This document shows positions 1,747-5,448 of a stretch of DNA of 5,738 bases, one piece after another; position 1 is the first letter of the stretch; the number at the start of each line of letters is the position of its first letter. The position numbers were made by a program, and so were the translations under genes. The DNA is taken from assembly GCA_022560555.1 (NCBI GenBank), contig JADFSZ010000117.1:1-5738 (forward strand). Reading direction: 5' to 3'. The notes beneath the pieces were generated by a model. The model did no database searches, was not told the origin of the DNA, and worked only from the letters and a program-made list of their open reading frames with translations. The stretch is from JADFSZ01 sp022560555 [NCBI: PVC group bacterium]. Its GTDB lineage: Bacteria; GCA-001730085; JADFSZ01.

Positions 1747-1776
1747 TTGACAGATATCCTCAATTATGTTAATAAT
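1747..1776 (+). promoter_or_regulatory. Sigma70-type promoter for rex-serC-serA
   Basis: A perfect -35 hexamer TTGACA (1747-1752) is followed after 18 bp by AATAAT (1771-1776), which agrees with TATAAT at 5 of 6 positions. The predicted start point is near 1783, inside the proximal Rex operator and about 28 nt before the rex ATG. The surrounding AT richness leaves other -10 registers possible (for example TAATAT at 1773-1778), but the -35 is clear. Confidence 0.7.
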
Positions 1777-1794
1777 ATGTGAAATGATTCACCA
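1777..1794. promoter_or_regulatory. Proximal Rex operator over the rex transcription start
   Basis: ATGTGAAATGATTCACCA agrees with TTGTGAAnnnnTTCACAA at 12 of 14 defined positions. It directly abuts the predicted -10 and would cover the transcription start, the expected place for repression. This supports autoregulation of rex and control of serC and serA by the same signal. Its centre is 138 bp from that of the distal operator. Confidence 0.8.
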
Positions 1795-1810
1795 ATAACA
1801 AAGGTTTATA

Positions 1811-2419
1811 ATGCTCCCGATTTGCACCTTAGAGAGGCTTTGTAAGATTTTTCAGGTTCTTGAGAGATATGAATTGGACCATATCCAGGCGGTGTCATCG
1901 AGGGACTTGGAAAAATGTATCCACGCCACATCTGTGACGATTCGTAAAGATATCAGCGCGATTGGGCGCGTGGGTGTCACAAAGAGAGGGTATGATGTCA
2001 TTGAGCTCAAAAAACATATCGGTGAACATCTTAAGCTCTTTCGTAAACGAAGAGCGTGTCTTGTCGGGCTGGGAAGAATCGGAGGCGCGCTTCTTGAGTA
2101 TCAAACCTTGCAAGATGATGGATTTGAAATCATAGCCGGATTTGATAACAATGTGAACAAAGTTGAACGTATGCGCACAGATATCCGGGTTTATCCCGTT
2201 CATGAATTGTTAGATATTGTAAAGAGCCATAGAATTGAACTAGGTATTATTGCCGTTCCGGGCGAAGCCGCGCAAAAAGTAGCCGATCAATTAAACAAAG
2301 CGGGTATTAAAGGGATTTTGAATTTTTCACCCGTTGGTATAGCGCTGCCGGATAGGGTCATAGTCGAAAATATTGATTTTACGACAGCTTTAAGAATTTT
2401 GGCCGCCAAAATGGGTTAG
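1811..2419 (+). CDS. rex: Redox-sensing transcriptional repressor Rex
   Basis: A 202-aa cytoplasmic DNA-binding repressor that senses the NADH/NAD+ ratio; length is close to the family's usual 205-215. Residues 1-80 form the winged-helix domain, with the recognition region SVTIRKDISAIG (41-52) and a wing ending KRGYDV. The Rossmann domain follows, with the dinucleotide motif GLGRIGGAL (86-94) and IIAGFDNN after the second strand. The C-terminal stretch GIKGILNFSPVGIALP then ENIDFTTALRIL (187-198) matches the conserved Rex core and the helix that swaps between subunits. The wing is slightly shorter than the usual GKRGVGYDV form. The start is ATG 1811, preceded by AAAGG at 1800-1804 with a 6-nt spacer. 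Two Rex-type operators lie upstream, pointing to self-repression. serC begins 27 nt after its stop. Confidence 0.93.
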   Translation: MLPICTLERLCKIFQVLERYELDHIQAVSSRDLEKCIHATSVTIRKDISAIGRVGVTKRGYDVIELKKHIGEHLKLFRKRRACLVGLGRIGGALLEYQTLQDDGFEIIAGFDNNVNKVERMRTDIRVYPVHELLDIVKSHRIELGIIAVPGEAAQKVADQLNKAGIKGILNFSPVGIALPDRVIVENIDFTTALRILAAKMG

Positions 2420-2432
2420 ATGAGAACATCAG

Positions 2433-2438
2433 AAAGGA
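2433..2438 (+). promoter_or_regulatory. Shine-Dalgarno deciding the serC start
   Basis: AAAGGA lies 8 nt before ATG 2447. The earlier in-frame ATG at 2420, directly after the rex stop, would add nine residues (MRTSERNKA) that precede the conserved SerC N terminus, and it has no comparable site before it. This favours 2447. Confidence 0.65.
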
Positions 2439-2446
2439 ATAAGGCG

Positions 2447-3529
2447 ATGAGAAAAGTTTTTAATTTTAGCGCGGGGCCGGCCGTTTTACCCCAAGAGGTT
2501 CTCCGGGAAGCAGCGGATGAAATGCTGGATTATCAAGGCTGTGGGATGTCTGTGATGGAGCTTTCTCATCGCGGCAAAGAGTTTGGTGAAATACTCGAAA
2601 ACGCTGAAAAACTTTTACGGGATCTTCTCAAGATTCCTAAGAATTATCACGTTTTGTTTCTTCAAGGCGGCGCCACCCTGCAGTTTGCTATGGTGCCTAT
2701 GAACCTTTTTGGAAAAACAGGACGCGCTCACTATTTTCATACGGGACTTTGGTCTAAAAAGGCCATTTTTGAAGCTAAGAAATTCGGAGAAGTTTTGATT
2801 TCTGCAAGCTCTGAAGATAAAAATTTCACATATTTGCCAACGGTTAAAGCGCAAGATCTTCAGCCGGACGGAGATTATATTTTTATGGTGACGAATAACA
2901 CGATTTACGGAACATGTTTTAAAAATATTCCGGATACAGGAAATATCCCTCTGGTGGGGGATATGTCTTCCAATATTCTTTCGGAGCCCATAGATGTGCA
3001 AAAATTCGGGATCATATTTGCCGGAGCTCAGAAAAACATCGGCCCGGCGGGTTTGACCATTGTGATCATTCGTGAAGACCTGGTTGAGAGGACTGAAAAG
3101 AAAATACCGACTTATCTCGATTATAAAACTCATGTTAAAAATAAGTCGCTTTATAATACACCTCCCTGTTACACCGTTTACCTGGCGAAACTTGTGTTTG
3201 AGTGGATCAAGGAGCAAGGGGGATTAGACGCTATGGGCAGGCGTAATCATGATAAAGCCGGTCTTTTATACGATTATCTTGATGCGTCAACATTGTTTAA
3301 ATCTCCCGTTGTAAAACACGACCGTTCGATCATGAATGTGACTTTTGTGACGGGGCAGCCCCAACTCGATGACATTTTTATCCGGGAGGCCGAAGGAGCC
3401 GGACTAAAGAACCTCAAAGGACATCGTGCCGTCGGAGGCATGCGGGCCAGCATTTATAATGCCATGCCGAAGGAAGGCGTGGAAACGCTTATTCGGTTTA
3501 TGGAAACATTTGAAAAAACACACACGTAA
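2447..3529 (+). CDS. serC: Phosphoserine aminotransferase
   Basis: A PLP-dependent class V aminotransferase that converts 3-phosphohydroxypyruvate plus glutamate to O-phosphoserine and 2-oxoglutarate, the second step of serine synthesis; some SerC enzymes also serve pyridoxine synthesis. From ATG 2447 it is 360 aa, the normal family length. Signatures include the start VFNFSAGPAVLP, SHRGKEF (about 40-46), GGATLQF contacting PLP phosphate (74-80), the cofactor Lys in GAQKNIGPAG (about K196), NTPP (237-240) and VGGMRASIYNAMP near the C terminus (329-341), whose residues bind the substrate. All key residues are present, so it should be functional. It sits 27 nt after rex with no promoter visible between them, and its stop codon overlaps the serA ribosome binding site. 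Confidence 0.95.
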   Translation: MRKVFNFSAGPAVLPQEVLREAADEMLDYQGCGMSVMELSHRGKEFGEILENAEKLLRDLLKIPKNYHVLFLQGGATLQFAMVPMNLFGKTGRAHYFHTGLWSKKAIFEAKKFGEVLISASSEDKNFTYLPTVKAQDLQPDGDYIFMVTNNTIYGTCFKNIPDTGNIPLVGDMSSNILSEPIDVQKFGIIFAGAQKNIGPAGLTIVIIREDLVERTEKKIPTYLDYKTHVKNKSLYNTPPCYTVYLAKLVFEWIKEQGGLDAMGRRNHDKAGLLYDYLDASTLFKSPVVKHDRSIMNVTFVTGQPQLDDIFIREAEGAGLKNLKGHRAVGGMRASIYNAMPKEGVETLIRFMETFEKTHT

Positions 3530-3533
3530 GGAG
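3528..3533 (+). promoter_or_regulatory. serA Shine-Dalgarno overlapping the serC stop
   Basis: AAGGAG begins inside the serC stop codon (TAA 3527-3529) and lies 6 nt before ATG 3540. It fixes the serA start and indicates coupled translation of serC and serA. A longer in-frame opening from GTG 3426 would overlap serC by about 100 nt and translates into serC sequence in another frame, so it is not the real start. Confidence 0.8.
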
Positions 3534-3539
3534 CAACTG

Positions 3540-4769
3540 ATGACAACAAAACATCCAAGCGCGAAAGTATCTTACGATCCCGGCACTGACAAGCCGTCTT
3601 ATAAAATTAAGACGCTGAATAAAATATCATCCGACGGATTAAGCCTTTTTGAACTTGACCGCTATGAAATCGGCAGTGAAATCCAAAATCCCGACGCCAT
3701 TGTTTTAAGAAGCTGTAAAATGCTCGATATGGATCTACCCGATACTCTTTTGGCTGTCGGAAGAGCCGGCATCGGTGTGAATAATATTCCGATTGAAAAA
3801 TGCACCGAAAGAGGAGTGGTTGTGATGAATACGCCGGGGGCCAACGCGAACGCGGTTAAGGAATTGGCTATACTTGGGCTTTTATTGTCCAGTCGGAAAA
3901 TTCTTGAAGGACTTGTATTTTCACAATCCCTCAAAGGAAAGGGGACCGAGATCCCGAATATTATTGAGGAACAAAAGAAAAACTACGGCGGCCAAGAAAT
4001 CGCGGGTAAACAGCTAGGGGTGATTGGCTTGGGAAAAATCGGTGTCATGCTGGCCAATAGTGCTTTGGATCTTGGAATGAATGTTGTCGGTTATGACCCT
4101 TTTATATCTGTCGAAGCGGCGTGGGGGTTGTCACGGGACGTGGAAAGAGAGGAAGGCCTCGACAGGCTTGTTGCCAAGTCGGATTATATCTCGATTCATA
4201 CACCCCTGACGGATGAAACACGGGGACTCATCGATATGGAGAAATTCCAAAGAATGAAAAAAGGGGTTCGATTACTTAATTTTTCACGCGGAGGCATCGT
4301 GAATAATGATGATCTTAAAAAAGCCATTGAAACAGGTGTTGTGGCCGGATATGTTACGGATTTCCCCGATGATGACCTTATTAACTCTAAAAATGTGATA
4401 TGTATTCCGCATTTGGGAGCCTCTACACGTGAAGCCGAAAGCAACTGCGCTCAAATGATGGCTCGACAAATGAAAGATTTCCTTGAGAACGGAAATATTA
4501 TCAATTCCGTTAATTTTCCGACATGCTCGCTAGAGCGAACGAGCAGCTATCGCCTTTTGATCGCAAACAGAAATATTCCGAATATGGTTGGGCAAATCTC
4601 AACAATACTCGCGAGAGAAGATATTAATATCGTCGAGATGCTTAACAAAAGCCGAGATGAGATCGCGTACAATATTATCGATATTTCCAGCCACGCGTCC
4701 AAGGCGATCATTCAAGCCATGGCCAAGACCAAGGGTGTGGTCACCGTCAGGCTATTGTCGCATGAATAA
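3540..4769 (+). CDS. serA: D-3-phosphoglycerate dehydrogenase, short ACT-domain type
   Basis: Catalyses the committed step of serine synthesis, NAD+-dependent oxidation of 3-phosphoglycerate to 3-phosphohydroxypyruvate. The protein has 409 aa. The D-isomer 2-hydroxyacid dehydrogenase core holds GRAGIGVNNIP (74-84), NTPGANANAVKEL (97-109), the Rossmann motif GLGKIG (163-168), the catalytic Arg in NFSRGG (R250) and the catalytic His in PHLGAST (H291). The position of the usual catalytic Glu appears to be Asp (D278, in VTDFPDDD). A C-terminal ACT domain spans about 337-409 (LLIANRNIPNMVGQ), normally the site of serine feedback. The layout recalls the roughly 390-aa SerA paired with serC in Clostridia and Bacteroidetes. 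About 20 hydrophilic residues precede the usual start at YKIKTLNKIS, with no internal start codon in between. An alternative 2-hydroxyacid substrate is possible, but the serC neighbour argues for serine synthesis. Confidence 0.93.
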   Translation: MTTKHPSAKVSYDPGTDKPSYKIKTLNKISSDGLSLFELDRYEIGSEIQNPDAIVLRSCKMLDMDLPDTLLAVGRAGIGVNNIPIEKCTERGVVVMNTPGANANAVKELAILGLLLSSRKILEGLVFSQSLKGKGTEIPNIIEEQKKNYGGQEIAGKQLGVIGLGKIGVMLANSALDLGMNVVGYDPFISVEAAWGLSRDVEREEGLDRLVAKSDYISIHTPLTDETRGLIDMEKFQRMKKGVRLLNFSRGGIVNNDDLKKAIETGVVAGYVTDFPDDDLINSKNVICIPHLGASTREAESNCAQMMARQMKDFLENGNIINSVNFPTCSLERTSSYRLLIANRNIPNMVGQISTILAREDINIVEMLNKSRDEIAYNIIDISSHASKAIIQAMAKTKGVVTVRLLSHE

Positions 4770-4800
4770 TTAAAATCCTGAGACTTTCACTATCTCACAA

Positions 4801-4838
4801 AACCTCGAACGGGGAAATTTCCCGTCCGAGGTTTTTTT
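4801..4838 (+). terminator. Intrinsic terminator of the rex-serC-serA operon
   Basis: The arms 4801-4813 and 4821-4833 pair over 13 positions with one A/C mismatch (4808/4826) around a 7-nt loop (GAAATTT), and the stem runs into seven T residues (4832-4838). It starts 31 nt after the serA stop. The strong GC stem plus U-tract marks the 3' end of the operon and separates it from mraZ. Confidence 0.93.
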
Positions 4839-5004: not shown

Positions 5005-5448
5005 ATGTTCATGGGTCATCATATCCATAAAATAGACGCGCGAGATCGCCTGAGCATACCCGTCCGAATGCGCGAAGAACTGTATCGCGGCGGCCGGGAG
5101 CATCCGATCATTACTGTGGGATTTGAAAAATGCCTGTTTTTGTATCCCATGGAGCGCTGGAAAAATTTTTCCGAAGAAGCCGAAAGCCTAAAAACATCCC
5201 GTGAAGATTCCCGGAAAATCGAGCGATTTTTATTTGCCAACGCCAGTGAGTGCCCTTTTGACAGCCAGGGCCGCATTCTTGTGGCGAAACATCTCTTGGA
5301 TTATGCCCAACTGAATAAAGACGTTGTGATTATCGGTGTGAGGAATCGTATTGAGCTATGGGACAAATCGGAATGGGAAACGCAATCCATGCTCATACGT
5401 AAAACCGTTTTAGACGTCTCAGAAAATATTGACGGATTTTCCATTTAA
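5005..5448 (+). CDS. mraZ: Transcriptional regulator MraZ
   Basis: A 147-aa protein of the MraZ family, a ring-forming DNA-binding regulator at the head of the dcw (division and cell wall) cluster. It has the two AbrB-like half-domains expected: the first at about 1-50 (MFMGHHIHKIDARDRLSIP) and the second at about 77-122. Each carries the DxxxR signature, DARDR at 11-15 and DSQGR at 86-90. Length is typical (about 140-150). ATG 5005 is preferred because family members begin M-F-x-G; AAGGAG (4991-4996) precedes it by 8 nt, and a second ATG at 5011 is less likely. An array of TGGGN boxes upstream points to self-repression. The stop codon lies within a tandem 16-bp repeat. In most bacteria rsmH follows; here an unrecognised small ORF comes first. 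Confidence 0.94.
   Translation: MFMGHHIHKIDARDRLSIPVRMREELYRGGREHPIITVGFEKCLFLYPMERWKNFSEEAESLKTSREDSRKIERFLFANASECPFDSQGRILVAKHLLDYAQLNKDVVIIGVRNRIELWDKSEWETQSMLIRKTVLDVSENIDGFSI

Follow-up and report, generated by a model that had tools for sequence, protein, structure and literature searches.

We analysed the 5,738-bp contig JADFSZ010000117.1 of the PVC group bacterium JADFSZ01 sp022560555 (GCA_022560555.1), in which a gene for the repressor Rex directly precedes the serine biosynthesis genes serC and serA; this complete contig (G000:C87) is called the window below. Our analysis suggests, with a probability of about 0.62, that the three genes form a self-contained redox module, in which a dedicated Rex, here termed ser-Rex, would repress its own rex-serC-serA operon through two looped operators and would be released by reduced nicotinamide adenine dinucleotide (NADH), in a compensatory role. 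This reading builds on the gene order and its conservation, the operators and their phasing, the separate clade of ser-Rex, changes in its residues and in the operator flanks, and a genome with no other near-exact site in front of a gene; from these we infer NAD(H) sensing and its direction, the looping and the compensation.

In the proposed mechanism, ser-Rex, the product of the first gene, would bind a proximal operator at the −10 element and transcription start and an auxiliary one ~137 bp upstream, repressing its own operon. Both sites occupy approximately the same side of the helix, most likely so that a pair of Rex dimers, or one dimer of dimers, could form a repression loop resembling that of lac. 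The operon would be repressed in the NAD+-rich state, while accumulating NADH would release Rex and let SerC and SerA rise, with autoregulation by ser-Rex limiting the response. Because NADH is expected to inhibit and thermodynamically oppose phosphoglycerate oxidation, more SerA under reduced conditions would sustain the supply of serine and one-carbon (C1) units.

The operon and its conservation

The window belongs to an assembly of 1.66 Mb in 222 contigs (91.5% complete) and carries, in order, an acyl-CoA-ligase-like gene, rex, serC, serA, a terminator and mraZ. On the plus strand, rex (1811–2419, 202 aa), which profile, structure, residue and tree evidence places in a dedicated ser-linked Rex subfamily, is preceded by a Shine-Dalgarno-like AAAGG (1800–1804). 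The phosphoserine transaminase gene serC (2447–3529, within a mechanical open reading frame (ORF) from 2420) scores 542 bits with NF003764 against an equivalog cut-off of 253, and 508.6 against 443.6 with TIGR01364. Its ATG at 2447 follows a Shine-Dalgarno stretch and agrees with the starts of orthologs, so we took this start, which sets the gap to rex at 27 nt. The gap to serA (3540–4769) is 10 nt, and the serC stop codon TAA is shared with TAAGGAG. SerA is D-3-phosphoglycerate dehydrogenase-like, with the Pfam domains 2-Hacid_dh and 2-Hacid_dh_C and a C-terminal extension of the E. coli type. An intrinsic terminator closes the operon at 4799–4838 (a hairpin of −22.1 kcal/mol with z −4.9, then a run of seven T). 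A first-pass annotation of this DNA had described one tight operon on these grounds, and the gaps, the stop/Shine-Dalgarno overlap and the terminator are all borne out.

The arrangement recurs in other genomes. The Rex of the window, used alone as a query of genome contigs, found no relative, and an alignment scan recovered relatives among its best 80 matches. The nearest Rex among 98 relatives (G088, 42%) has serC and serA downstream, and within the 44 genomes of its phylum a ser-type Rex was present in three (G114 at 54%, G111 at 50%, and G088). An alignment of these three with the Rex of the window led to at least 11 named loci at ≥50%, in Omnitrophota, one Auribacterota and one Termititenax. 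Scores separated the family from the next match both across 386 genomes sampled domain-wide (five ser-Rex including that of the window, 232–356 versus 180) and across 384 genomes of the Omnitrophota phylum (16 ser-Rex, 302–335 versus 172). Once duplicates (L096, L172, L173, L176, L178, L190, L192, L194, L198, L123, L126) and second copies of counted loci (L219, L221–L223, L228, L229, L231) had been removed, 25 non-redundant ser-rex loci were left, spanning at least four phyla: that of the window, an Auribacterota-labelled one, Omnitrophota and Margulisbacteria.

All 24 testable ser-rex loci have serC and/or serA directly downstream on the same strand; L101, whose contig stops 77 bp past rex, was excluded from this count. 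At L070 and L093, serA follows rex without serC, and gaps from rex to the next gene range up to ~200 nt. Neither serC nor serA was found in any of 148 canonical rex flanks (median 1.5 kb downstream; 3 loci had <100 bp). The sole other genome of the window's phylum that was compared (G001) contains serC, with no rex match and, on 9.7 kb around its serC, no serA match. The arrangement is thus not unique to one assembly, which had been named as an observation that would speak against it, and control by Rex of both itself and serC-serA is its most likely meaning.

Two operators in helical phase

Upstream of rex, a sigma-70-type promoter, TTGACA-18-AATAAT (1747–1776, plus strand), matches 11 of 12 consensus positions, the top score in the window. 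It is adjoined by a proximal Rex operator (1776–1795; core 1779–1792, GTGAAATGATTCAC) that lies on the expected transcription start. A distal operator (core 1641–1654, GTGAAATATTTCAC) sits in a perfect 42-bp palindrome (1627–1668) with 21-nt arms of 100% complementarity, its core 138 bp from the proximal one. Both cores match GTGAANNNNTTCAC exactly, and no further exact core exists in the assembly. Two exact cores in the window compare with 0.15 expected even at one mismatch; 4 of 200 shuffled sequences also gave two. The two Rex-type operators of the first-pass annotation are therefore upheld, and their regular spacing is an addition to it.

The distal palindrome is found immediately 3′ of the stop codon of the ligase gene, and its RNA would fold into a hairpin of −21.5 kcal/mol (z −7.3); it may additionally terminate or stabilise the upstream transcript. 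Arms of such length are not apparent at the distal sites of other ser-rex loci. A strong internal serC promoter, which would have argued against Rex control of the downstream genes, was not seen on the plus strand between 2000 and 4900, since the best candidates there (2124, 2207, 4159 and 4327) reach 9/12, the chance level for that scan, a result that leaves room for a weak one.

Across the 25 loci, an exact proximal GTGAANNNNTTCAC is present in 24, in most just past a TTGACA-type promoter, and a −35 element of the TTGAC- type lies 29–39 bp upstream of the operator core in most of them. The remaining locus, in G088, has no exact core anywhere, and each of its two operators carries one mismatch. 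In 21 of 25 loci there is a distal core with no more than one mismatch 60–170 bp upstream, where Markov shuffles predict 0.07. None of the 144 canonical rex loci with sufficient upstream DNA has a second site at 60–170 bp (an exact core is present in 9), and closer pairs of cores were detected in 3 of 148, at 21, 24 and 38 bp.

The spacings between distal and proximal cores are 92, 93, 125, 126, 127, 136 (seven loci), 137 (two), 138 (five, including the window), 140 and 149 bp; 15 of 21 fall within 136–140 bp and the remainder are offset by approximately whole helical turns. Identity between spacers is 0.578, close to the 0.563 of shuffled sequences (0.65 for pairs of equal length, where alignment is easier), indicating that length rather than sequence is conserved. 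The spacings fit best to a period of 11.2 bp (R = 0.836; R = 0.72 at 10.5 bp), giving p = 0.0015 when the 10 distinct lengths are tested and p = 0.011 for the 7 values outside 136–138 bp. This test on 21 loci, which supersedes a first one on 12, took uniformly distributed spacings as its null and let the period vary from 10.0 to 11.6 bp, and its p values are only indicative because the spacings share ancestry. Excerpts of work on lac loops report 10.95–11.60 bp per turn in vivo across 57–155 bp (PMC1762422), a range that includes the period at ser-rex loci. The lac repressor, as described there, likewise combines a main operator at the promoter with an auxiliary one in helical phase, comparable to the 92–149 bp at ser-rex loci; it is a protein unrelated to Rex, and bridging by Rex dimers is a prediction.

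A simpler explanation is ordinary autoregulation, in which the proximal site alone represses, the distal one acts independently (through cooperativity without a loop, a road-block or control of upstream readthrough) and promoter architecture accounts for the spacing. The loci that have just the proximal site fit this explanation, as does the weaker distal site, which deviates from the core at one position in 13 of the 21 loci. The movement of the spacings by approximately whole turns across unrelated spacer sequence does not, and we regard the explanation as unlikely, if by no means negligible.

One of the loci with just a proximal site, L099 of Omnitrophota, shows a GC-rich inverted-repeat stretch between operator and rex start, with the core at −103 rather than at about −35.

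A separate Rex clade with altered DNA-reading residues

The Rex of the window scores 188.7 bits with NF003995 (cut-off 126), exceeds the cut-offs of NF003994 and NF003996, contains PF06971 (winged-helix N-terminus) and PF02629 (Rossmann NAD domain) above cut-off, and aligns over its full length with the Rex structures 5zz5 and 3ikt. A tree of 67 Rex proteins places all 16 of the sampled ser-linked members in one clade with support of 100/99. Within it, the ser-Rex of G111 (L071) and G114 (L070) nest among those of Omnitrophota, whereas that of G088, from the same phylum, is basal, and horizontal transfer of the operon is therefore likely, judging from this tree.

We then compared residues, in T. 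aquaticus numbering, between 16 ser-Rex and 134 canonical Rex proteins. The two residues of the NADH switch, Y98 and D188 (roles in PMC6125430), are kept in 16/16 ser-Rex, as are the base-reading R46, K47 and D48; the glycine-rich loop is retained, and D112 is aspartate in 15 and glutamate in one. Other positions have changed. R16 is Gly in 14, Gln in one and Ser in one (Arg in 110/134 canonical proteins), and Q44 is Thr in 15 and Asn in one (Gln in 109/134). In the wing, R58 is Thr in 11, Ser in three, Gly in one and Ala in one (Arg in 77/134), and G59 is Arg in 12, Gly in two, Lys in one and Thr in one (Gly in 91/134).

According to excerpts of a study of T. maritima Rex (PMC8836258), the equivalents of R58 and G59 act in the minor groove, where they read the two T bases that precede GTGAA. 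The flanking T at −1 (TTGTGAA...TTCACAA) is present in 17/50 proximal and 9/42 distal ser half-sites versus 21/24 half-sites of canonical rex self-sites, a deficit with Fisher p values of 1.5e-5 and 2.8e-7, respectively, for half-sites that are not independent. A constraint imposed by the promoter does not explain the loss at distal sites, as these avoid the −10 element. Wing residues and operator flanks thus seem, as far as sequences can tell, to have drifted together. Several ser-rex genomes carry a second, canonical-like rex.

Compared with canonical Rex of T. aquaticus, B. subtilis, T. maritima and S. aureus, ser-Rex shares the fold, the NAD(H) pocket, Y98, D188 and the operator core, and differs in R16, Q44 and R58/G59, in the relaxed T at −1 and in its serC-serA partner. 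T. maritima Rex (PMC6125430, PMC8836258) lacks the Arg16 equivalent (Met18), like ser-Rex, and retains Arg60/Gly61, which read the flanking T bases and are replaced in ser-Rex.

With the Arg16 switch partner lost clade-wide, the set-point or even the ligand could differ, and ser-Rex might read another ligand, such as a metabolite of the serine pathway, or respond at another threshold. We consider this rather improbable: the residues of the switch and of the NAD(H) pocket named above are kept, and T. maritima Rex, with Met18 at that position, nonetheless adopts different forms with NAD+ and with NADH (PMC6125430).

SerA and the physiological role

The first-pass annotation had taken for granted that SerA makes NADH, a premise that rests on annotation. 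The SerA of the window stays below the equivalog cut-offs for D-3-phosphoglycerate dehydrogenase (PGDH), with 270 versus 454 for TIGR01327, its best NCBIfam match, and 217.7 versus 404 for NF008759, while its matches in the PDB are PGDHs. Alignment shows the catalytic Arg and His and the phosphate-binding Arg-Ser to be present, with a shorter DFPDDD stretch replacing the Glu loop; both this SerA and its ser-rex orthologs have YVTDF[PA]D[DE] where a DVFxxEP loop with the catalytic Glu is usual.

These features would also suit a SerA that works, at least in part, as a reductase and consumes NADH, for instance in turning 2-oxoglutarate into 2-hydroxyglutarate, in which case induction at high NADH would provide a direct electron sink and no paradox would arise. 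E. coli SerA accepts 2-oxoglutarate in the excerpted account (PMC6303947), which also gives an NADH binding constant of ~50 nM. Type IIIK SERA enzymes without that Glu can nevertheless be active PGDHs, and the partnership with serC indicates serine synthesis, making the reductase quite improbable. Compensation, with which the NADH binding of E. coli SerA agrees, is, in our view, the most economical physiological reading, and reoxidation of NADH by SerA would be the bolder one.

Probable dedication of ser-Rex to its operon

Rex control of serine genes is not new in itself, having been reported in Caldicellulosiruptor. Excerpts of the published accounts describe binding of C. bescii Rex before an operon for a class V aminotransferase and phosphoglycerate dehydrogenase in an electrophoretic mobility shift assay (PMC6391272), at a palindrome of the same core type, and list serC-serA among the most conserved Rex targets of the genus (PMC8579813). 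Unlike ser-Rex, that Rex is global (hydrogenases, pyruvate:ferredoxin oxidoreductase, fermentation), and the same excerpts mention neither rex within the ser operon nor two-site phasing (PMC6391272, PMC8579813).

The first-pass annotation had proposed an extension of the usual global Rex regulon to serine and had suggested looking for Rex sites before other genes of the same genome. At one mismatch, the window's genome contains 46 further cores, of which 43 lie within ORFs of ≥100 aa, one in a shorter ORF and two outside ORFs, both close to contig ends. None of those outside ORFs is located ≤250 bp before an ORF start (mechanical ORFs of ≥60 aa), and none of the 46 stands ahead of one. This screen covers near-exact cores (at most one mismatch), and more degenerate sites are possible. 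A one-mismatch site at C55:22708 was dropped as an operator, being located inside a phosphatase-like ORF, and the pattern TTNGTGAANNNNTTCACNAA at two mismatches, with 21 sites versus 12 in the control, was judged too loose.

Since no other near-exact core precedes an ORF in the window's genome, ser-Rex seems operon-specific there, a dedication that we regard as well supported by this sequence screen; in relatives it is likely. Thirteen relatives together contain 31 exact cores, and of the 23 examined, 14 belong to ser-rex operators, three precede a second paralog of rex, five fall in ORFs and one is L217. In light of L217 and the 8 cores outside the examined set, strict dedication is unproven for relatives. 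The second rex paralogs with an exact core of their own upstream (L202, L203 and L210, in G114, G408 and G433) are followed in 3/3 cases by a gene whose membrane-protein product carries a Cache-type sensor domain (PF17202).

That serC-serA is one target of a global regulon, cotranscribed with rex by chance, is very unlikely in view of this specificity, the separate clade with its altered DNA-reading residues and operator flanks, and the second canonical-like rex of several genomes, even with the precedent of Caldicellulosiruptor, whose Rex binds and, in the excerpts cited above, is predicted to control these genes. Least credible is the earlier suggestion that serine supplies a reductive-glycine or C1 pathway which takes up electrons, as the window's genome (91.5% complete) gave no GcvP match and the serine dehydratase PF03313 occurs in 0/23 ser-rex genomes (a control was positive in 9 of 14 known genomes), although GcvP, present in 21/23 ser-rex genomes, may allow for it in relatives.

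Directly past the operon terminator lies mraZ (5005–5448), usually the first gene of the division and cell-wall cluster.

Discussion

Several observations weigh against a looped, NADH-opened and dedicated module. L099, L101, L174 and L175 lack a distal site even at two mismatches (4/25 loci), so looping would not extend to every locus; the spacings are a small set related by descent, to which the period was fitted post hoc. In T. aquaticus Rex, Arg16 locks the NAD+-bound state that binds DNA; this residue is replaced in 16/16 ser-Rex, in contrast to its retention in 110/134 canonical proteins. Dedication in the window's genome is judged on an assembly that is 91.5% complete, in which cores with up to one mismatch number 48, versus 30 for a reversed-pattern control, and at L217 (G430:C29:110737) an exact core lies 17 bp before the ORF of a putative large secreted haemagglutination-type repeat protein, a possible extra target.

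In the open-licence literature we found no earlier account of a Rex that is linked to ser genes or forms loops, and within it a dedicated, cotranscribed Rex paralog with a phased two-operator design appears to be new. A wider interpretation, for which we put the odds slightly below even, is that a widespread and undescribed Rex subfamily serves as a looping, self-limiting redox thermostat for serine synthesis, in which paired Rex dimers bridge operators separated by a whole number of helical turns, NADH opens the loop and the joint drift of wing and flank prevents cross-talk with the canonical Rex of the same cell.

If correct, several uncultured phyla would possess a dedicated sensor that links redox state directly to the provision of serine and one-carbon units, and Rex, the textbook single-site repressor, would become a loop-forming one. 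The whole unit spans ~3 kb and is predicted to show repression that varies with NADH and with the helical phase of its operators, and wing residues that drifted jointly with operator flanks would represent a natural case of paralog insulation.

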